Source: Anaerolineales bacterium
Lineage (GTDB): Bacteria > Chloroflexota > Anaerolineae > Anaerolineales > E44-bin32
Assembly: GCA_004376895.1 (NCBI GenBank)
Contig: SOIH01000128.1
Coordinates: 1-47,091, forward strand
DNA: 47,091 bases
Direction: 5' to 3'
Both the position numbers and the translations under genes were made by a program. The notes beneath the pieces are model-generated. The model worked only from the letters and a program-made list of their open reading frames with translations. It did no database searches and was not told the origin of the DNA. This document shows, one piece after another, positions 547-10,383 of this stretch (the first letter of the stretch is position 1; each line of letters starts with the position of its first letter).

Positions 547-585
547 ATGGATCCAATAGCAATGGAATTTCTTCTGCCTGTATGA
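547..585 (+). CDS. Possible 12-codon leader ORF coupled to livG
   Basis: An ATG at 547 opens a 12-codon frame (MDPIAMEFLLPV), with a second in-frame ATG at 562. Its TGA stop at 583-585 overlaps the livG start codon in an ATGA arrangement. Neither the leader ORF nor livG has an evident Shine-Dalgarno sequence, so livG translation could depend on coupling. It is short enough to be chance. Confidence 0.25.
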   Translation: MDPIAMEFLLPV

Positions 586-1358
586 CAACTGAAACGATTT
601 TTCTAAAGGTAGATGACGTCTCATTGCGCTTCGGCGGCACCCAGGCACTCACGAGTGTTAGCTTCGACGTCCATCCTGGTGAGATCCTGGCAATTATCGG
701 GCCCAACGGCGCCGGTAAGACTTCCATGCTAAACTGCCTCAACGGCTTCTACCGACCCTATCAGGGGCAGATCCTCTTCAACAGTAAAGACCTCACGAGG
801 CTGCCACCCGATCGCATCGCCCAAATGGGGGTGGCGCGCACCTTCCAAAATATCGCCCTGTATACTGGCCTGAGCACGCTCGATAACCTAATGGCAGCCC
901 GTCATATTCATATGCGGGCTAACTTTTTACAGTGTTTGATCTATTGGGGTCCGGCACACCGTGAAGACATCACCCATCGGGTGCGGGTTGAAGAGATCAT
1001 CGATTTCCTCGAGATCGAACACATCCGCAAATCAATTGTCGGATCGCTGCCCTACGGACTACGCAAGCGAGTGGAATTGGGTCGCGCCCTGGCGCTCGAA
1101 CCGCGCTTGCTACTGCTGGATGAACCCATGACTGGCATGAATCAGGAAGAAAAGGAGGATATGGCGCGTTTCATCCTCGATATCCACGAGCGCGAGCATA
1201 TGACAATCTTGCTGATAGAACATGATATGGGCTTGGTCATGGACATCGCCGATCGCGCCGTGGTGCTCGACTTCGGCGCCAAGATTGCCGAAGGTTCTCC
1301 CAAGCAGATACGCTCGGATCCAACTGTGATCAACGCCTACCTAGGTGAGGCTGCTTGA
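582..1358 (+). CDS. livG: Branched-chain-type (HAAT) ABC transporter ATP-binding protein, LivG-like
   Basis: This is a cytoplasmic ATPase subunit of an importer of the Liv/HAAT family. The 258-residue length is normal. Visible motifs are Walker A GPNGAGKT at residues 40-47, Q-loop Gln89, a slightly divergent signature (LPYGLRKR, 156-163), Walker B LLLLDEP (176-182) and the H-loop His214. It is the first gene of an operon with an acyl-CoA synthetase, two permeases, a binding lipoprotein and LivF. That context suggests the cargo may be a carboxylic acid rather than an amino acid (inference). No Shine-Dalgarno precedes the ATG, and the start overlaps a tiny upstream ORF. Its stop overlaps the long form of the next gene but not that gene's preferred ATG. 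Confidence 0.92.
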   Translation: MTTETIFLKVDDVSLRFGGTQALTSVSFDVHPGEILAIIGPNGAGKTSMLNCLNGFYRPYQGQILFNSKDLTRLPPDRIAQMGVARTFQNIALYTGLSTLDNLMAARHIHMRANFLQCLIYWGPAHREDITHRVRVEEIIDFLEIEHIRKSIVGSLPYGLRKRVELGRALALEPRLLLLDEPMTGMNQEEKEDMARFILDIHEREHMTILLIEHDMGLVMDIADRAVVLDFGAKIAEGSPKQIRSDPTVINAYLGEAA

Positions 1359-1359
1359 G

Positions 1360-3294
1360 ATGGGCGATATGGATACCCTCCCGAAGAGTTTGCGGGCTAC
1401 TGCCGCACGCTATGGGTCGAGCAGAACCGCCATGCGGCAGAAGGACCGCGGCATCTGGCGCTCCTTCACCTGGGAAGAATCGTTTGAGCAGACGCGCGAT
1501 CTTTGCCTGGGTCTTACGCAACTGGGTTTTGCACACGGAGAAAAGGCCTGCATCATTGGCGATAACGATCCGCAATACTTCTGGGCGCAAGTGGCGGTCC
1601 AATCTGTCGGCGGTATTGCCGTGGGTATCTTCACGGATAGCTCGCCGCTTGAAATTGAATATATCGTGGCACACTCGGATTCCACCCTGGTGTTCGCTAA
1701 GGATCAGGAACAGTGCGATAAGCTGATCGAGATCAAGGATCGGCTCCCTAAGGTGGAGCGCGTCATCTACTGGGATGAGAAGGGTTTGTGGAGCTACGAT
1801 GATGAATGGCTGCTGGATTACGACGAGGTCCAGGCATTAGGCAGACATCTCCATGAGGAAAAACCGGCGCTGTTCGATCAATTGGTCGACGCAGGAAAGG
1901 CTGATGAGTTTGCCATCTTTTGCTACACATCAGGAACAACTGGCCAACCGAAAGGGGCGATGATCAGCCACGCAAATTTGATCGACGGTTGCGATCTAAC
2001 CCTGGAAGTAGACCCGCGCACCGCGGATGATGAATACCTCTCATTCCTACCCCCGGCCTGGATCACTGAGAACGTGCTTGGCCTGGCGATTCACCTGCGC
2101 ACGGGCATGATCGCCAACTTTCCAGAGGCTCCCGAGACAGTCCAGGAGAACTTGCGCGAGATCACACCCTTCGTGCAGTTATTCAGCGCCCGTCAGTGGG
2201 AAAGCCTGGTTGCTCTGGTGCAAGTGAAGATGACCGAAGCCACCTGGGTCAATCGTTTACTCTACCGACTCTTCATGCCGGTTGGCTATAAAGTAGCGAA
2301 TTTGCGCTACGAACAGCATAAACCGATTCCCTGGATCTGGCGCGCATTGTTCGCTTTCGGTGAAGTTGCATTATTCCATCCACTGCGGGACAAACTGGGT
2401 ATGACCCGCATCCGCTCGGCCTATTCTTCGGGTGCAGCCCAGAGCCCGGATGTGATCCGTTTCTTCCGTGCCATCGGGGTCAATATCAAGCAGCTATACG
2501 GTTCTACGGAAGCCCAGACGCACACGCTCCACATCGGTGATGACGTGCGTTTTGAGACTGTCGGTCTGCCACTGCCCGGGATGGATGTCCGCATTGCTGA
2601 TGACGGCGAGATCCTCATCGCCGGTCCTTCGGTTTTCCAAGGCTACTACAAAGATCCTGATGCCACTAAAGCAGCACTCGAGATCGATTCGGAAGGTAAA
2701 AGGTGGTTCCGAACCGGGGATGCCGGGCACATCGATGATGACCAGCACGTGATCTACCTCGACCGTCTTAAGGAGATGATCCCACTGGCAAGCGGGGAGC
2801 ACTTCTCGCCACAGTTCATAGAAGGTCAGCTCAAATTCAGCCCCTATATCCGTGACGTGATGACGGTTGGCGCGGCCGATCTTCCATTTGTCACGGCTTT
2901 AATCAACATCGATTTTGAGAACGTGGGCCGCTGGGCTGAAAGACAAGGTCTTGCTTATACGACGTTTGTGGATTTATCTCAAAAGCCAGAGGTCTATAGT
3001 CTTATCCGACAGGATGTGGAGCGCGTCAACCAAACGCTGGTCGAGGCGGCAGCCGTGCGCCGGTTTGTGCTGATGCATAAAGAATTCGATGCTGATGAGG
3101 CAGAGCTTACTCGCACCCGTAAACTGCGCCGAAGGATTTTGCGGGAACACTATCAGGATATTATTGACGCCATGTATAGTGAAAGCGTCGAAGTGCGTGT
3201 CAAAGCTTCCGTGCGCTACCAGGATGGTCGTGAAGGGATCATCGAAACGACGGTGCGTGTAGAAGCGCTCGATAAGGAGGAGAGTCCAGTATGA
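1360..3294 (+). CDS. Long-chain acyl-CoA synthetase (AMP-forming), embedded in the importer operon
   Basis: This enzyme forms an acyl-AMP and then an acyl-CoA from a carboxylic acid, ATP and CoA. It belongs to the long FadD15/FACS branch (COG1022-like), about 644 residues. The phosphate-binding loop TSGTTGQPKG lies at about residues 190-199, YGSTEAQ near 380 and TGDAGHID near 451. The C-terminal part retains the lysine-rich TRKLRRR segment of this branch. A GTG at 1345 could extend the protein by five residues, but GGTGAGG at 1344-1350 is well placed as a ribosome site for the ATG at 1360. The stop overlaps livH by four bases. Position between livG and livH implies tight co-expression with the transporter, consistent with activation of the imported substrate. 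Confidence 0.9.
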   Translation: MGDMDTLPKSLRATAARYGSSRTAMRQKDRGIWRSFTWEESFEQTRDLCLGLTQLGFAHGEKACIIGDNDPQYFWAQVAVQSVGGIAVGIFTDSSPLEIEYIVAHSDSTLVFAKDQEQCDKLIEIKDRLPKVERVIYWDEKGLWSYDDEWLLDYDEVQALGRHLHEEKPALFDQLVDAGKADEFAIFCYTSGTTGQPKGAMISHANLIDGCDLTLEVDPRTADDEYLSFLPPAWITENVLGLAIHLRTGMIANFPEAPETVQENLREITPFVQLFSARQWESLVALVQVKMTEATWVNRLLYRLFMPVGYKVANLRYEQHKPIPWIWRALFAFGEVALFHPLRDKLGMTRIRSAYSSGAAQSPDVIRFFRAIGVNIKQLYGSTEAQTHTLHIGDDVRFETVGLPLPGMDVRIADDGEILIAGPSVFQGYYKDPDATKAALEIDSEGKRWFRTGDAGHIDDDQHVIYLDRLKEMIPLASGEHFSPQFIEGQLKFSPYIRDVMTVGAADLPFVTALINIDFENVGRWAERQGLAYTTFVDLSQKPEVYSLIRQDVERVNQTLVEAAAVRRFVLMHKEFDADEAELTRTRKLRRRILREHYQDIIDAMYSESVEVRVKASVRYQDGREGIIETTVRVEALDKEESPV

Positions 3295-4211
3295 ATTGGC
3301 AATTACTGCCCCAGTTCGCCGTAACTGGATTATTGGCCGGCGGTCCAATTGCCTTGATGGCGCTCGGCCTGGTGCTCATCTTCAAGTCCTCCTACATATT
3401 CAACTTCGCGCAAGGCCAACTGCTTCTCATAGGTGCGCTGATCACCTGGTGGTTTTCAGTGGAACTGGGGCTGCCATTGTGGGTCTCGATCGCCCTGGCG
3501 TTAATCATCTCGGCTTTTCTGGGTCTGGTCATCGAACGTTTGGCGCTGCGACCGATGACTGGACAACCACTGCTTTCGATCATCTTGATGACGCTTGGTC
3601 TCAGCCAGGTTCTACAAGGATTGGCGCTGCTGTTTTTCGGCGGAAGTCAGCGCAATTTCCCACATATTTTCTCGGCCGGTGACCCTTATAAGATCACCAC
3701 CCCATTTATATACGAGGGTAATCCGATTGTGCTGATCCTCAAGCAGAACCTGGTGTGGTCCTTTATCGTGGCCATCCTGGGCGTGATCGTGATCGGCGCC
3801 TTCTTTCAATTTACCAAAGCCGGGCTGGCGATGAGAGCCACCTCCGAGGATCACGAGCTGGCACAGAGCATTGGACTGCGCGTCCACCGTATCTTTGGCA
3901 TCTCATGGATGTTAGCCGCTGTTGTTGCGACTACTGGGGGGGTGCTCCTGGCAACATCAAGCGGCCTCGACCTGAGCCTTTCCGTCGTGGTGCTAGCGGC
4001 CTTTCCAGCCGTGCTCTTGGGTGGCCTGGAGTCGATCCCGGGCACGATCGTCGGCGGCCTTTTAATTGGCCTATCGCAGGGGTTGGTCTCAGTCTCGAAG
4101 ATCCAATTTATTCGCAATTCAGGCGAGATCATGCCCTATATCGTACTCCTGTTGGTCTTGCTGATCCTGCCAGAAGGATTATTCGGTCAAAAGAGGATCG
4201 AGAGGATCTAG
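3291..4211 (+). CDS. livH: Branched-chain-type ABC transporter permease, LivH-like
   Basis: This is an integral membrane permease of the HAAT importer family, 306 residues, with about eight hydrophobic segments. The amino end (QFAVTGLLAGGPIALMALGL) and the segment around IFNFAQGQLLLIGA are typical of LivH. It pairs with LivM to form the membrane channel. AAGGAGGAG just upstream is a strong ribosome site for the ATG at 3291, which overlaps the ligase stop codon (ATGA). It is followed after three bases by livM, so translation of ligase, livH and livM is probably coupled. Confidence 0.93.
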   Translation: MNWQLLPQFAVTGLLAGGPIALMALGLVLIFKSSYIFNFAQGQLLLIGALITWWFSVELGLPLWVSIALALIISAFLGLVIERLALRPMTGQPLLSIILMTLGLSQVLQGLALLFFGGSQRNFPHIFSAGDPYKITTPFIYEGNPIVLILKQNLVWSFIVAILGVIVIGAFFQFTKAGLAMRATSEDHELAQSIGLRVHRIFGISWMLAAVVATTGGVLLATSSGLDLSLSVVVLAAFPAVLLGGLESIPGTIVGGLLIGLSQGLVSVSKIQFIRNSGEIMPYIVLLLVLLILPEGLFGQKRIERI

Positions 4212-4214
4212 AAA

Positions 4215-5276
4215 ATGGCTGTGTTACGACCTGCCGGTGAATTCGATACAAGTTATGCAGAGGACATGGCCACCATCCGTCGCAAGTGGCAGTGGGTGGT
4301 TCTGTTCGCGCTCATTATTGCGCTTTACACATTGCCGTTCTATGCCAGTCAAAGCCTTGTCGCCCTGGTGAATCGCATCTGCATTACCATCATCGCAATT
4401 CAAGGTCTCAATTTACTCACTGGCTATACCGGACAGATCTCACTGGGCCAGGCAGCCTTCATGACCACCGGAGGCTATATTTCTGCGCTGCTGGTAAACC
4501 AGCTGGGCTGGCCCTTCTACTTCTCAATGCCAGCTGCTGCTCTGGGGGCTGGTGTGATCGGGTTGCTATTCGGTCTGCCCTCGCTGCGGGTGAAGGGGTT
4601 TTACCTGGTGATGGCTACCCTGGCAGCCCAGTTCATCATCCCCTGGTTTACCCGCAACTCCTTCAAAGAGCTTCTGAACGGTGCCCAGGGGTTGAACGTG
4701 GCTGTGCCCGTGTTTTTCGGGTTGGAAATCAACACGCCGCAGCGCTACCTGGTGTTGACATTAACTGTCCTGATCGTGACTACGTTCGTTGCCCACAATG
4801 TCTCGCGCTCTCGTCTCGGGCGCGCCTTCATCACGATCCGCGATAATGATTTGGCCGCGGAGGTGCTTGGAGTTAATTTATTCCGAGTAAAACTTCAGGC
4901 TTTCTTCCTGGCGGCTATGTACGCTGGCCTGGCAGGTGCGCTAGCAGCCCACCAACTGCGCCATATAAATTCTGAAACCTTCAATTTGACCGACTCGATC
5001 ATCTTCATGGGGATGCTGGTCATCGGCGGTCTAGGATCCAATCTGGGTCCTTTCTTCGGCGCGATTGTGGTCGAGATGTTGATCGAAATTGCCACTATCC
5101 TCGGACCAGTTTTCTCCGATATTCTTCCGGCTACAGCTTATGGCGCCGTTCAGGCATTGCGTCCATTGTTCTTTGGCACAGCTTTAATGCTGTTCCTGAT
5201 CTTTGAGCCGCGCGGTTTAGCCTATCGCTGGAATGTCATAAAAGCAGCCTGGCGATTACGTCCATTCTCTCATTAA
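4215..5276 (+). CDS. livM: Branched-chain-type ABC transporter permease, LivM-like
   Basis: This is the second membrane permease of the importer, 353 residues. After a hydrophilic head of about 25 residues there are many hydrophobic spans. The family-typical stretches include LNLLTGYTGQISLGQAAFM near residues 75-95, LPSLRVKGFYLVMATLA near 125-142 and SRLGRAFITIRDNDLAAEVLGV near 195-215. The last is the EAA-like cytoplasmic loop that contacts the ATPases. Another in-frame ATG at 4269 (MATIRRKW) would remove the hydrophilic head. The 117 bases before the binding-protein gene contain a short TGTCATTTCGAA repeat fragment. Confidence 0.93.
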   Translation: MAVLRPAGEFDTSYAEDMATIRRKWQWVVLFALIIALYTLPFYASQSLVALVNRICITIIAIQGLNLLTGYTGQISLGQAAFMTTGGYISALLVNQLGWPFYFSMPAAALGAGVIGLLFGLPSLRVKGFYLVMATLAAQFIIPWFTRNSFKELLNGAQGLNVAVPVFFGLEINTPQRYLVLTLTVLIVTTFVAHNVSRSRLGRAFITIRDNDLAAEVLGVNLFRVKLQAFFLAAMYAGLAGALAAHQLRHINSETFNLTDSIIFMGMLVIGGLGSNLGPFFGAIVVEMLIEIATILGPVFSDILPATAYGAVQALRPLFFGTALMLFLIFEPRGLAYRWNVIKAAWRLRPFSH

Positions 5277-5393: not shown

Positions 5394-6731
5394 ATGCGTA
5401 GCAAGATCCATATCCTTCTTAGCCTATTTGTCCTAGTAGCACTGGTATTAGGTGCCTGTGCACCTGCCGCTACGGAAGAACCACCACCACCACCGCCACC
5501 GCCAGAGCCTACAGCCCCTCCGGAGCCAGAACCTGAAATACCGGCTGGGCCGCCTGATCTGACCGGTGAAACGATTACGATCTATCACTTCGGCGATCTT
5601 TCCGGCCCATATGCGGCTATCACCTCGCCGCTGGTGCACGGAGCGGAAGATGCCGTCGCGGCAGTTAATGAGGCCGGGGGGATTTATGGCGCCATGCTTG
5701 ATGTGAAATTCGCCGATACTGGCGGCAGCATCGATGAAGCCGTGGCAGCTTTCGATCGCTTCACCGGTGAAGATGACAATCCGCTGGTGATGATCACCTA
5801 CGGCTCAGGTGAAGTTGAAGCGCTAGCGCAGCGCTTCGCCGAGAATAAGGTCGTCAACATCACCGCCGGTTTGAGTGCCCGGGGCTTCTACATCGATTCG
5901 GGTTACTCCTTCGGGCTGGGACCGATCTACCCCGATCAGTTCGGCTTAGTGATGACCTTTTTGCACGATAACTGGGAAGCGTACAAACCGGCCGATGCAG
6001 GGGATGAGATCAAGCTGGCCTACGTCAGCTGGCCCACAGCTTTTGGCCAAGGGGCGCTTACGCCCGAAACGCGGGTCTTCCTTGATGATTTAGGCATCGA
6101 GGTGGTCGCTGAAGAAACCTACGATGTCTCGCCGGCCGCGGATACAACCACCGCCATTCTTAACGCCCAGGCGGCTGGTGCCAATGTCATCTGGACCAAT
6201 ACCTTGGCGTTCGGCGTCTCGGTTGTCTTGAATGACCTCAATAGCCTTGGTCTACGTGATCAATTTGTCGTCGCGACCGATAACTGGGGTATGGACCTGG
6301 CTACCTATGCCTTCCTAGCGGATGGGGCTTATGGTGTCGGTCTGATCTCGGCCTTCCCCTATCTCTGGTGGACCGATGCTGATAATGCCGGTGTGCAGTA
6401 TGCCGAGAACTTGTTCGCCGCCAACGAGCGGCCGTCGAGTGAGCACAATGTCGGCTACCTGCTGTTAGTCGCCGGGATCGATATGGCCGTTCAGGCGATC
6501 CAGCACGCTATCGATACGGTGGGCTACGAGAATCTTAATGGTGAGGCCGTGCATGATGCCCTGATGGACTTGAGTCCGTTCGAGGCGCTGGACGGTGTGC
6601 TACGTGTCGACTACTCAGGTACGAGCCGATCGCCACATGTCTCCCAGATTCGTATGATCATGGGTGGACCAGACGCCTTTAATGTTCTTCAAGACTGGAC
6701 CGACACCCCAGATCTGCGACCCACAGAGTAG
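5394..6731 (+). CDS. Substrate-binding lipoprotein of the HAAT importer (LivJ/K-like)
   Basis: This is the extracytoplasmic receptor of the importer. A signal peptide ends in a lipobox (VLGAC, Cys22), so the mature protein should be lipid-anchored. A strongly Pro/Glu-rich tether follows (residues about 27-52, including a run of eight prolines), then a periplasmic-binding-protein type I fold beginning near ITIYHFGDLSGPYA. The length of 445 residues is typical once the tether is added. A ribosome site GAGGAGATGAG precedes the ATG. The ligand cannot be read from sequence; the two flanking acyl-CoA synthetase genes suggest an organic or fatty acid, whereas the fold family includes amino acid, urea and aromatic-acid receptors. 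Confidence 0.92.
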   Translation: MRSKIHILLSLFVLVALVLGACAPAATEEPPPPPPPPEPTAPPEPEPEIPAGPPDLTGETITIYHFGDLSGPYAAITSPLVHGAEDAVAAVNEAGGIYGAMLDVKFADTGGSIDEAVAAFDRFTGEDDNPLVMITYGSGEVEALAQRFAENKVVNITAGLSARGFYIDSGYSFGLGPIYPDQFGLVMTFLHDNWEAYKPADAGDEIKLAYVSWPTAFGQGALTPETRVFLDDLGIEVVAEETYDVSPAADTTTAILNAQAAGANVIWTNTLAFGVSVVLNDLNSLGLRDQFVVATDNWGMDLATYAFLADGAYGVGLISAFPYLWWTDADNAGVQYAENLFAANERPSSEHNVGYLLLVAGIDMAVQAIQHAIDTVGYENLNGEAVHDALMDLSPFEALDGVLRVDYSGTSRSPHVSQIRMIMGGPDAFNVLQDWTDTPDLRPTE

Positions 6732-6785: not shown

Positions 6786-6800
6786 ATCCATAAGGTGCCT

Positions 6801-7607
6801 ATGTCGCAGTTAATGCTTAATAACATCGAGGTTGTGTATTGCGACGTCATCCAGGTGCTGCGAGGGGTATCGCTCGAGGTGCAGCCTGGAACCGTCGTAG
6901 CTCTATTGGGTTCGAACGGCGCTGGAAAGACGACCACCCTGCGAGCGATCTCGGGCTTGCTGGTAAGCCAGGACGGCAAGATCACGCGCGGCACGATCGA
7001 GTACGACGGCGAGCGCATCGACCGCCTGCCACCAGATGAAGTCGTCCGAAGGGGTTTGATCCAGATTCTGGAAGGGCGACGGCTCTTCCAACACCTCACG
7101 GTCGAGGAGAACTTGGTCGTAGGTTCGGTGGCGCGTGGTCGCACAACGGATGCCAGCTTGAAACACGATCTGGCCGAGGTCTACCGCTATTTCCCCAGGT
7201 TGGAGGACATGCGCAAGCGTGTCAGCGGCTACCTGTCTGGTGGGGAGCAGCAAATGCTGGTCATTGGGCGGGCACTCATGAGTAACCCGCGCTTCATCCT
7301 GCTGGATGAACCTTCCCTGGGATTGGCACCCTTACTCGTCGCCGAGATCTTCCGGGTTATCCAGCAAATGAGCGATCAAGGCGGGATCTCGATCCTCCTG
7401 GTGGAGCAAAACGCCAATCTGGCGCTCAGTGTGGCGGACTACGCATACGTGATGGATAACGGACGTATCGTATTGGACGGGTCGGCAGAGCAAATGGTCA
7501 ATAATGAGGACATCAAGGAATTCTATCTGGGATTGAATCAGTTGGGTGAGCGTAAGAGCTACCGGGACGTGAAGCACTATAAAAGACGAAAGCGTTGGCT
7601 GGGATGA
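6801..7607 (+). CDS. livF: Branched-chain-type ABC transporter ATP-binding protein, LivF-like
   Basis: This is the second ATPase of the importer, 268 residues from the ATG at 6801; TAAGG just upstream favours that start over the GTG at 6795. Walker A is SNGAGKTT, the signature is YLSGGEQQ, Walker B is FILLDEPSLGLAP and the H-loop region is LLVEQNANLAL, with Gln replacing the usual His of the switch, as is common in LivF. The carboxyl end carries a basic tail of about 15 residues (SYRDVKHYKRRKRWLG) beyond the usual LivF end. I recall similar tails in LivF proteins encoded beside acyl-CoA ligases, but could not check this. Confidence 0.93.
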   Translation: MSQLMLNNIEVVYCDVIQVLRGVSLEVQPGTVVALLGSNGAGKTTTLRAISGLLVSQDGKITRGTIEYDGERIDRLPPDEVVRRGLIQILEGRRLFQHLTVEENLVVGSVARGRTTDASLKHDLAEVYRYFPRLEDMRKRVSGYLSGGEQQMLVIGRALMSNPRFILLDEPSLGLAPLLVAEIFRVIQQMSDQGGISILLVEQNANLALSVADYAYVMDNGRIVLDGSAEQMVNNEDIKEFYLGLNQLGERKSYRDVKHYKRRKRWLG

Positions 7608-7652
7608 GATCCAATCTCATCAGGAATCATCCCGGGGAAGGTGGGTAGAATT

Positions 7653-9152
7653 ATGGGACAAACTTTTTATACGATCCTTCAAGAGAACGCCCGTACGAGT
7701 GGTACAAAAATAGCACTCATTGGTTCATCTGATTCGCTCACGTACAATCAATTACTAGAACGTGTGGATAGGCTTGCCGAGGGTCTCAACCAGAGAGGTA
7801 TCGCATCGGGCGAACGCCTCTGCCTCCTGGCTCATAATGCCATCGAGAGCTTCCTGCTGTTTGGCGCTTGCGCAAGAACCGGGGCGATAATCTTCCCGAT
7901 CAATTGGCGTCTGTCGAGCGCAGAGGTTCAAGCGGTGTTGAACCTGGCTGAGCCGAAGATGGTGATCGTGGATGCAGCCAACCTGGGGACACTTGAATCG
8001 ATCGAAGTCGATTCTATTCCGCTTCGAGCCATTATTGGCATCGAACCCCAGGAGGGTTGGCTGTCCTTTGATGACTTGTCACAGGAGGCGGTGAGTGAAT
8101 TCCCGGTCGTCAAGGCGGACGATGCCTTCGTGTTGCTGACAACGGCAGCTGTTGAAGGCGTGCCGCGTGCTGCGACGTTAACACACGCCAATATCCTGAC
8201 GGCCAGCGATCAATTGATTGATGGTCTTGGATTAACACCCGACGACCGCCATCTCGCTGCGCTGCCACTCTTCCACGTCACCGGGTTAGGGCTCTCATTA
8301 GCGACACTTCAGGCTGGTGGCGCCAATATCATCCAGGAGCGATTCGATCCCGCTGATGCAGTAGGGCTCATGGATCAACATCAGGTGAGCTTACTAGCCA
8401 GTTTCCCGCCGGTATTAGCGACCTTGCTGGAGGCGCGTGAAGCGACCGGCGCCACGTGGGATTCGCTGCGCTATGTCTTGGGGCTTGATGCCCCTGAGAT
8501 GATCCAGCGCCTGTTGGCGGAAAGCGGGGCGAGTTTCTGGACTGGTTACGGTCAATCCGAGACATCCGGGGTTGTCACACTGATCGATGTGCGGGAGAAA
8601 CCAGGTGCGGTTGGCAAGCCCCTACCTGCCGCTGAGTTGCGTTGCTTCGATGAGCAGGGCAACGAAGTACCGGTGGGCGCGCCGGGGGAGATCGTCGTTC
8701 AAGGCCCCCTGGTCTTTCAGGGCTACTGGCGGGACGAAGATGCAAACCTTTACGCTGCCCGTCACGGGTGGCACCACACCGGTGACCTGGGACGTTTCGA
8801 TGAGGAAGGCTACCTCTACTACCTGGGTCGCAAACCGGAGAAGGATCTTATCAAGTCGGGTGGGGAGAACGTATATCCAGCCGAAGTGGAGTTCGCCATC
8901 GCTTCCCTAGCGCAGGTCAGCGCCGTTTGTGTCATCGGGGTTCCCGATGAGACCTGGGGCGAGACGGTAATGGCTGTGGTTGAACTAAAGCCGGGAGAGA
9001 CGTTGACCGATCAGGAAGTGATCGAGGCAGTCACGGCGCGAATTGCTGCGTATAAGAAGCCTAGACGAATTCAGCTTGTTGAGGTATTGCCACGCACGTC
9101 CGAAGGTCAAATCGACCGTGCAGCAGTAAAAGCGACCTACGGAGGAGAGTAG
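7653..9152 (+). CDS. AMP-binding acyl-CoA synthetase-like protein with altered catalytic motifs
   Basis: This protein has the full ANL-superfamily layout in about 499 residues. YGQSETSG and the HTGDLGRFDEEGYLYYLGR hinge region are clear, as is KSGGENVYPAEVE. Two key motifs differ. The phosphate loop, normally TSGTTGxPKG, reads TTAAVEGVPRAA at about residues 163-175 (bases 8140-8176). The C-terminal catalytic lysine of PRTxxGKI is glutamine (Gln486, RTSEGQIDR; bases 9108-9110). It may be a specialised ligase subfamily, a thioesterification-only enzyme, or a non-catalytic acyl-binding partner. It lies 45 bases after livF and probably belongs to the same operon. A GTG at 7641 could add four residues. 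Confidence 0.85.
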   Translation: MGQTFYTILQENARTSGTKIALIGSSDSLTYNQLLERVDRLAEGLNQRGIASGERLCLLAHNAIESFLLFGACARTGAIIFPINWRLSSAEVQAVLNLAEPKMVIVDAANLGTLESIEVDSIPLRAIIGIEPQEGWLSFDDLSQEAVSEFPVVKADDAFVLLTTAAVEGVPRAATLTHANILTASDQLIDGLGLTPDDRHLAALPLFHVTGLGLSLATLQAGGANIIQERFDPADAVGLMDQHQVSLLASFPPVLATLLEAREATGATWDSLRYVLGLDAPEMIQRLLAESGASFWTGYGQSETSGVVTLIDVREKPGAVGKPLPAAELRCFDEQGNEVPVGAPGEIVVQGPLVFQGYWRDEDANLYAARHGWHHTGDLGRFDEEGYLYYLGRKPEKDLIKSGGENVYPAEVEFAIASLAQVSAVCVIGVPDETWGETVMAVVELKPGETLTDQEVIEAVTARIAAYKKPRRIQLVEVLPRTSEGQIDRAAVKATYGGE

Positions 9153-9186: not shown

Positions 9187-10350
9187 CTAACTCAATCTTA
9201 GGATTCGCCGAAACCAAGTCGTTATTAGCTGGATTCCGACCTGCATAAATCTCAGCGCTGTCCCCAAAGGCTTAACCACGACGGTGCTTAAAGGGTTAAA
9301 CGCTGAGATCCAAGCAGGTGCTTTTCGGCGAGAGTGAAGGAAGGGGATTGGTTTTACGCGTTCGGCCACCTTGACCACGGCCGCCGCCCAGGAGAGACCG
9401 GCGCCAAAGGCTACAAACGCTAGCGTGTCACCTACTTTAGCGCGCTCTTGCTCGAAGGCTTCCACCAATGCAATCGGGATCGACGCGGCGGAGGTGTTTC
9501 CGTAGCGATCGATATTGATGAAGATTTTCTCTTCGGGGAAACCCACATAGCGTGCCGCGCTCTCGATAATACGCAAGTTCGCCTGGTGGGGGATGAAGAG
9601 ATCGATGTCGTCGCTCGTCAATCCGGCTTGTTGGATCACCTGCCGCAGCGCTTTGCCGATGATTCGAGAGGCGAAGCGGAAGACTTGGTTTCCGTTCATC
9701 TTCAACGTGTGAAGTCCCTGGTCGATCGTTTCATGGGTGGGGGGCATGGCTGTTCCCCCGCCTGGCAGGATCAGATGCTCGGCGCCCGATCCGTCAGAGC
9801 CAAGGACAGATGAAAGCACCCCGGCAGGTTCGTTGCTCACTTGTAGGACGACCGCTCCGGCGCCGTCGCCGAAAAGCACACAGGTTGAACGATCGGTCCA
9901 ATCGATGAATCGACTCAGCAGCTCAACACCGATGACGAGTACGTTGTCGCAGACACCATTGGCTATGTATTGCTGGGCAGTGGTCAGCGCATAGACGAAG
10001 CCAGCACACCCGGCTACAAGCGTGAAGGCGCCCACGTCGCGCGCTCCGAGTGCGTGCTGGATCTGCGAAGAGACCGGAGGAGTGAGGTAATCCGGGCTGG
10101 AGGTGGCGACGATGATTAAGCCTAGGTCGCGCGCCCGTACCTCGGCCATGGCCAGAGCATCGCGCGCTGCGGCGACAGCCATATCCGAGGTATTCTCGGT
10201 CGGGTTGACGATCCGGCGTTCACGGATGCCGGTACGCTTAACAATCCACTCATCGGTTGTCTCGATCATACGCTCGAGGTCGGCATTGGTGAGCACCTGT
10301 TCGGGGGTGTATTTGCCCCAGCCGACGATATTAGCGTAACGTTCTGACAT
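9187..10350 (-). CDS. Beta-ketoacyl-ACP synthase III family protein with C-terminal extension
   Basis: FabH-type enzymes condense an acyl-CoA with malonyl-ACP to start fatty acid synthesis; relatives make other beta-keto or hydroxymethyl products. The Cys-His-Asn triad is present: Cys115 (VAGCAGF), His255 (IPHQANLR) and Asn285 (YGNTSAAS). The ATG at 10350 is preceded by CTGGAGGAGATCGTT, a strong ribosome site, so the longer frame to 10383 is not used. After the normal fold ends near residue 330, about 57 more residues follow, basic then hydrophobic and ending in FRRILRLS. It is not in a fab cluster but lies tail to tail with the acyl-CoA ligase operon, so it could use products of that system (inference). 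Confidence 0.87.
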   Translation of the reverse strand: MSERYANIVGWGKYTPEQVLTNADLERMIETTDEWIVKRTGIRERRIVNPTENTSDMAVAAARDALAMAEVRARDLGLIIVATSSPDYLTPPVSSQIQHALGARDVGAFTLVAGCAGFVYALTTAQQYIANGVCDNVLVIGVELLSRFIDWTDRSTCVLFGDGAGAVVLQVSNEPAGVLSSVLGSDGSGAEHLILPGGGTAMPPTHETIDQGLHTLKMNGNQVFRFASRIIGKALRQVIQQAGLTSDDIDLFIPHQANLRIIESAARYVGFPEEKIFINIDRYGNTSAASIPIALVEAFEQERAKVGDTLAFVAFGAGLSWAAAVVKVAERVKPIPFLHSRRKAPAWISAFNPLSTVVVKPLGTALRFMQVGIQLITTWFRRILRLS

Positions 10351-10383
10351 AACGATCTCCTCCAGGGATGTATTCTTCCACAC

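Follow-up and report, generated by a model that had tools for sequence, protein, structure and literature searches.

A clade of ligase-like proteins with altered adenylation motifs, predicted to form only the CoA thioester and often encoded behind a Liv-type transporter operon

The gene at 7653..9152 on the + strand of the window (the whole stretch of 47,091 nucleotides analysed here, from an Anaerolineales bacterium) encodes an ANL protein, P0001, in which both adenylation motifs are altered, and the altered loop is fixed in the clade to which this protein belongs, referred to here as the AAV clade. In textbooks, an acyl-CoA ligase is a single enzyme that catalyses two steps; in the case of the AAV protein, two proteins may share the work that is normally done by one enzyme. 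The AAV protein is predicted, with moderate confidence, to be a thioesterification-only enzyme that converts acyl-AMP, probably made by a FadD-like ligase, into acyl-CoA.

How would the two steps be divided? The AAV protein would no longer bind and align the triphosphate of ATP, its loop being without hydroxyls and without the first glycine and the A10 lysine being absent, while the AMP pocket (A5, TGD and Arg393) and the CoA-side A8 loop with Lys401 would have been retained. Within the presumed operon that also holds the AAV gene, the FadD-like ligase would adenylate the imported acid and hand the acyl-AMP over to the AAV protein, which would then swap AMP for CoA on the ready-made adenylate and release acyl-CoA and AMP. 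Uptake of the Liv type would thereby be coupled to trapping of the acid as its CoA thioester.

Motifs lost and motifs kept

Translation of 7653-9152 gives 499 amino acids ending in a stop (coding part 7653-9149); the longest open reading frame opens upstream of the ATG, at GTG 7641. Pfam matches to AMP-binding (225 bits) and AMP-binding_C (65.7 bits) point to the two-domain ANL fold. The first-pass annotation had noted that the phosphate loop is not TSGTTGxPKG and that the C-terminal catalytic lysine is replaced by Gln486 in SEGQIDR, and both translation and alignment bear this out. The loop (residues 163-174, TTAAVEGVPRAA; 8139..8174, + strand) reads TAAVEGVPRA and departs from the A3 consensus (S/T)(S/T/G)G(S/T)TGxPK. 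Gln486 (9108..9110, + strand) falls in the alignment column of the A10 lysine, a residue that PMC8388817 describes as highly conserved throughout acyl-CoA ligases.

Further motifs of a canonical ligase, namely A5, A7 (TGD), the A8 arginine and the GGEN loop, are all present. The A8 region (residues 393-413; 8829..8891, + strand) contains Arg393, an insertion at 395-396, Lys401 and GGENVYPAEVE, and its CoA side is intact. The earlier remark that the hinge and acyl-binding regions look intact holds for A5 (GQSE), A7 (TGD), Arg393 and the A8 loop; it had overlooked the two-residue insertion, which lies before the A8 motif in the clade alignment, and the clade-specific Lys401.

Is the altered loop a peculiarity of one gene or a trait of a clade? 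An alignment of 82 rows was made from 79 of the best 80 loci in a profile scan of contigs, together with P0001, 3IVR and a plasmid protein of Polaromonas JS666; one locus, L102, was left out, since its match stops at residue 419 and the frame is lost after that point. Ala165, Ala166, Arg172, Gln301, His374, Lys401 and Lys493 are invariant in all 82 rows, as are Lys397, Lys468 and the CoA-side motif that includes Lys401, and Val167 is found in 79. The alignment suggested by the first-pass annotation as a check on the AAVEGxPR loop therefore identifies it as a clade trait, with Ala165, Ala166 and Arg172 in every member. The A10 place is occupied by Ser (26 rows), Ala (15), Glu (14), Gly (7), Thr (5), Asn (4), Leu (4), Gln (3), Lys (2), Val (1) or Arg (1), so that 79 of the 82 rows, drawn from the best 80 loci, have neither lysine nor arginine there. 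Column entropy is high at position 486 (88th percentile) and at position 490 (81st), and low at Gly485 (22nd), Asp488 (11th) and Arg489 (0). Three loci, L041, L151 and L093 (L138), hold clade members that have an A10 lysine, which may be either retained or regained, yet keep the TAAV loop.

Among 190 pairs of clade genes, the 16 closest have dN/dS values of 0.03-0.22, and six of these pairs set L107 (three pairs) or L090 (three pairs) against one and the same near-identical trio. Values in this range indicate that the AAV genes are under purifying selection. Sequencing error, assembly error, chance and a pseudogene were considered as explanations of the altered motifs and rejected, given a motif fixed in 82 of 82 rows and the dN/dS values of these 16 pairs. 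Two loci, L181 (G330) and L160, carry a partial AAV gene from which the N-terminal part is gone. The 17 kb read contain no Liv operon, and these partial genes are possibly decaying.

Could the lost residues be compensated within the same protein? A complete acyl-CoA ligase, in which the backbone amides of the loop act together with Arg172, and Lys401 or Lys493 stands in for the A10 lysine, to support a perhaps slow adenylation, is unlikely but has several observations on its side. Arg172, Lys397, Lys401, Lys468 and Lys493 are invariant, the residues of the AMP pocket are kept, and three of the 82 members have lysine or arginine at the A10 place; we count these three, and the invariant Arg172 and Lys493 that could compensate, against the division into two enzymes. 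The possibility that a lysine elsewhere takes the catalytic position had been raised as an objection from the start; Lys401 and Lys493, both invariant, are candidates for this role. In 4-chlorobenzoate:CoA ligase, according to the review PMC8388817, a change at Gly163 lowers activity 1,000-fold and a change at Lys169 lowers it 4-fold; in our mapping onto this numbering, Ala166 takes the place of Gly163 and Arg172 that of Lys169, and the large effect at Gly163 argues against a complete ligase. So does PtmA2, which shares the losses, keeps the A8 lysine and is reportedly non-adenylating (PMC6594144).

Alternatively, the AAV protein might be a catalytically dead partner, acting as a scaffold, a sensor or an allosteric subunit of an importer-ligase complex by binding FadD, acyl-AMP or acyl-CoA. 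This explanation, which resembles the pseudoenzyme partner of the first ligase proposed earlier, is consistent with two altered adenylation motifs and with a gene order that includes an intact ligase and a transporter; the first ligase is indeed the likely partner. It appears improbable, because Lys401 and the rest of the CoA-side loop are invariant, as are Arg393 and the AMP pocket; a scaffold would have no need of them, and they point rather to an enzyme.

Ligases outside the clade have conventional motifs. In 18 distinct non-clade ligases, taken from among the next-best matches in 61 related genomes and five others, the A10 lysine is always present and the loop starts with TSG, TGG or TAG and has a lysine or arginine near its end; one of them, L141, has the odd loop TSGTESTPKG. 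No intermediate between the canonical and the AAV form was found among these 18.

The AAV clade is represented in Desulfobacterota, Rokubacteria, Chloroflexota and Burkholderiales. The closest named relatives (L041 and L042) are from Chloroflexota, with 58% identity in the AAV protein and 70-71% in LivF. The clade is rare in the phylum of the window: 300 other genomes of this phylum, with at most five candidates scored in each, gave no match of at least 300 bits. The earlier suggestion that this is an unusual subfamily already known is correct in part: a solved structure, 3IVR, belongs to the clade, but a literature search found no study of the clade, functional or other.

The transporter operon and the source of the acyl adenylate

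Upstream of the AAV gene, the + strand of the window carries the gene order LivG-FadD-LivH-LivM-SBP-LivF: a LivG-type ABC ATPase (582..1358), the FadD-like ligase (1345..3294), a LivH-type permease (3291..4211), a LivM-type permease (4215..5276), a substrate-binding protein of the Peripla_BP_6 family (SBP, 5394..6731) and a LivF-type ABC ATPase (6795..7607), which a gap of 45 bp separates from the ATG that opens the AAV gene. The genes are presumably co-transcribed, and their order suggests a link between the ABC importer and activation of its substrate. The SBP is 95% identical to that of the window in a relative from the same genus (L178), 79% in L176 and 38% in L177 and L179. The other parts of the operon keep 56-73% identity in these last two, and relatives may thus differ in what they import.

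The FadD-like ligase has an intact loop (TSGTTGQPKG) and an intact A10 lysine (RTRK), and is the likely adenylating partner. TSGTT and the A10 lysine are kept in 19 of 19 aligned FadD rows. Thus the window protein, like PtmA2, has a separate ligase encoded with it, here in the same run of genes and with both adenylation motifs intact. Five further ligase-like proteins in the genome of the window reach E 0.001 or better, and the loops of three of these read TSGTTGQPKG (the FadD of the operon), TSGTTGKPKG and SGGTTGISKA (L002 and L003). The operon FadDs have no A8 lysine, and the glutamate of this motif varies among them. The degenerate A8 motif was considered as proof that FadD only adenylates, and this argument was dropped because the FadDs of genomes without an AAV protein are alike.

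The next gene, convergent with the AAV gene, encodes a FabH-like ketosynthase (9187-10383, - strand). The ketosynthase has a C-terminal extension of about 60 amino acids past the family match, and its gene also adjoins the AAV gene in L042, L177, L179 and L181.

Is CoA the acceptor? The AAV protein might instead pass the acyl group from acyl-AMP to a carrier protein or an amine, run in reverse from acyl-CoA and AMP, or clear stray acyl-AMP. The adjoining ketosynthase could use acyl-thioesters, which would suit such a role, but its gene lies on the opposite strand, no match to a carrier-protein family was found among the operon genes of the window, and the A8 loop is of the CoA-ligase type. An acceptor or role of this kind is therefore very unlikely, and CoA would be the acceptor.

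Gene order in other genomes ties the AAV gene to Liv components in many cases and not in all. At least 900 bp of upstream DNA is available at 72 of the best 80 loci, and the nearest upstream match to any window protein is a same-strand Liv component at 40 of these, or at 39 of 72 once L054, with a weak 28% ATPase match, is left out. LivG, FadD, LivH, LivM and LivF are all present at 18 of the 47 loci, again from the best 80, that have at least 8 kb upstream; these counts come from tblastn with the window proteins, by which distant components can be missed, and gene calls in the GC-rich Rokubacteria are partly antisense artefacts. No further ligase was found in the flanking DNA examined at L066, L072, L109, L112, L120 and many other loci. 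Given how many members have no neighbouring ligase, and that no more than 18 of these 47 loci show the full operon, a dedicated neighbour is not the rule. Such members speak for the complete, compensated ligase and against the dead partner, and they would need some source of acyl-AMP, a point that can also be claimed for a non-CoA acceptor. A putative lipoprotein of about 200 amino acids, with a LEA_2 match below the cut-off, is encoded at 14 loci, including L104 (7157-7759), L062, L064 and L071; in Desulfobacterota its gene mostly sits between those of LivF and the AAV protein.

The association with FadD is clearer among close relatives. In 61 genomes (that of the window and 60 relatives), the AAV protein is found in 12, at full length with at least 683 bits in 10 and as partial matches of 478 and 413 bits in two; the best non-member scores 406 bits, and a 438-bit match in G320 is of another type and was excluded from the count. 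A FadD-like gene is present in 11 of the 12 genomes with the AAV protein versus 7 of the 49 without it (Fisher p 8e-7, a guide only, as the genomes are related).

What stands at the end of the FadD-Liv operons? Twelve operons in the related genomes have a visible end, and 11 of them finish in a ligase without the phosphate loop; the remaining operons leave their contigs or the stretch read and were not counted. An AAV protein ends seven (in the window, L176-L179, L239 and L240, the last visible from the SBP on) and a PaaK-like protein ends four (L221, L222, L223 and L226), while in the twelfth (L232, of G330) neither LivF nor a second ligase was found. No PtmA2 profile was used in labelling these ends, and a PtmA2-like gene could carry another label. 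The PaaK-like proteins, of about 370-410 amino acids, are also found in Azospirillum (L220:14549-15778) and L236, the copy in L222 lying at 7048-8154; all six have SPGPI(Y/H)EP or SPGPLYEP where PaaK has SSGTTGxP. Two different ANL branches without the usual phosphate loop, the PaaK-like family being unrelated to the AAV clade, thus occupy one place behind an intact FadD; among the results on gene context this is the strongest. That another loop-less ligase can stand behind LivF counts against a complete ligase with compensated losses. No second ligase was found directly behind the FadD-Liv operon in L227, L228, L229, L234 and L237 (Desulfobacterota and Rokubacteria) or in L218 and L219 (Alphaproteobacteria), which speaks against a general rule.

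It is tempting to generalise, with rather less confidence than for the AAV protein itself, that a split ligase is a widespread way to couple uptake to activation and no oddity of a single antibiotic pathway. An adenylating FadD and a thioesterifying partner would have been brought together at least twice, with the TAAV clade and with the PaaK-like SPGPIYEP proteins, each partner having discarded its loop. If the thioesterification-only role is true for the AAV clade, a large environmental group, the label of fatty-acid CoA ligase would be wrong for many annotated genes, and acyl-AMP would be a metabolite handed over between proteins. The clade also offers a natural set of sequences for asking why the two steps were separated.

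Descent and predicted structures

Have the AAV clade and PtmA2 lost their motifs together? In a tree that includes the motif columns, solid groups are formed by the 48 rows of the AAV clade and by the nine rows of the PtmA2 group, and the split that sets the two apart from canonical ligases has support of 98.7/100. With the motif columns removed (74 rows, 414 columns), support is 100/100 for the AAV clade, 100/100 for the PtmA2 group and 87.1/95 for the two joined. Placing either group with a canonical Azospirillum/Variovorax group is not rejected (AU p 0.34 and 0.28). From these trees, a single loss in a common ancestor of the AAV clade and PtmA2 is favoured, and parallel loss in the two groups is possible. 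The CoA-transfer-only enzyme, one of the options in the first-pass annotation, is best supported, given that the motifs of the adenylation half are altered and that PtmA2, reportedly non-adenylating, has the same losses and is the closest neighbour in the trees.

The AlphaFold model of the AAV protein (53 rows) has a pLDDT of 94.3 and draws the loop as a hairpin with strands at 158-167 and 170-177, while in the FadD control (19 rows; pLDDT 87.0) the loop is open, with pLDDT <50 at 197-199. The AAV model superimposes on 3IVR over 389 residues at 1.3 Å (Z 58.8). As a whole chain it fits 5UPS (PtmA2; 488 residues, 3.0 Å), 5BSR (4CL with AMP and CoA; 492 residues, 2.8 Å) and 5X8F (472 residues, 2.9 Å), and it fits poorly to the ATP-bound 5BUR (459 residues, 9.0 Å) and to 8WEV (9.6 Å). 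The FadD model fits the ATP-bound 5BSM (488 residues, 2.9 Å), 4FUT (479 residues, 3.2 Å) and 5BUR (459 residues, 3.1 Å), and fits 5BSR over 395 residues only. The two models thus differ in domain arrangement, and they are suggestive of a thioester-forming state for the AAV protein and an adenylating state for FadD. A predicted conformer is weak evidence here, because the adenylate-bound 5BST, 5WM6 and 4ZJZ fit the AAV model equally, because 5UPQ and 5UPT of PtmA2 do not (11 Å), and because BadA, an ordinary ligase, adopts the thiolation state even without CoA, as stated in PMC8388817.

Comparison with known ligases

FadD13, MatB and the feruloyl-CoA synthetase 8WEU share with the window protein the fold, the two domains, A5, A7 and A8, but differ in having an intact TSGTTGxPKG-type loop and A10 lysine. 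Another branch of the ANL superfamily holds the PaaK-type phenylacetate:CoA ligases (4R1L, 2Y4O) as well as the PaaK-like proteins without the loop; the latter occupy the same place behind LivF as the AAV protein, with the loop SPGPIYEP and not TAAV. Among the closest solved structures is 3IVR from Rhodopseudomonas palustris CGA009, deposited as a 'putative long-chain-fatty-acid CoA ligase', which is a member of the AAV clade with 43% identity to the window protein, the loop TAAVGGRPRGA and alanine at the A10 place. Its solved chain has 394 residues (5-398 aligned), and the C-terminal domain is seemingly not modelled. In a PDB search with a 54-row clade profile, 3IVR scores best (686 bits), followed by PtmA2 (353 bits) and, just behind it, 8WEU (352); when the window protein alone is used, PtmA2 comes 10th-11th, with canonical ligases ahead.

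PtmA2 of Streptomyces platensis (PDB 5UPQ, 5UPS, 5UPT and 5E7Q) is a known precedent. Wang et al. (2018) are said to have found that PtmA2 catalyses thioesterification only and does not adenylate, the adenylate being made by PtmA1. That PtmA2 works with PtmA1 as a separate adenylating ligase is also stated in PMC6594144. PtmA2 has the loop TAAMSGRQCG, alanine at A10 and LKSAAEN at A8, and thus shares with the window protein, at 28-29% identity in structure alignments, a T-A-A-x-x-G loop without hydroxyls, the absence of the A10 lysine and a kept A8 lysine; its GYGQTE is a further likeness. Eight plasmid-borne relatives (42-52% identity to PtmA2) also have the TAA loop and no A10 lysine, making nine of nine with PtmA2 itself, and five of the eight have a PaaK-family ligase within about 3.5 kb, with the loop SSGTTG, TSGTTG or GSGTSG. 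Beside PtmA2-like and PaaK-like genes on plasmids of Rhodococcus, Massilia and Sphingomonas there are genes for proteins of 220-230 amino acids without a Pfam match (L123:2697-3386, L125:5274-5963 and L128:2459-3118); hypothetical genes of similar size are found in L121 and L126.

The two groups also differ. PtmA2 has GT for GR, and so no Arg393, and TTD for TGD, whereas the window protein keeps both; in the PtmA2 group Arg393 is kept in none of nine and TGD in two of nine, while the AAV clade keeps both. PtmA2 acts in a natural-product pathway, and the window protein is encoded in a transporter operon. By analogy, the AAV clade is best regarded as a widespread variant of the PtmA2 kind, and the chemistry proposed for it is itself not new.
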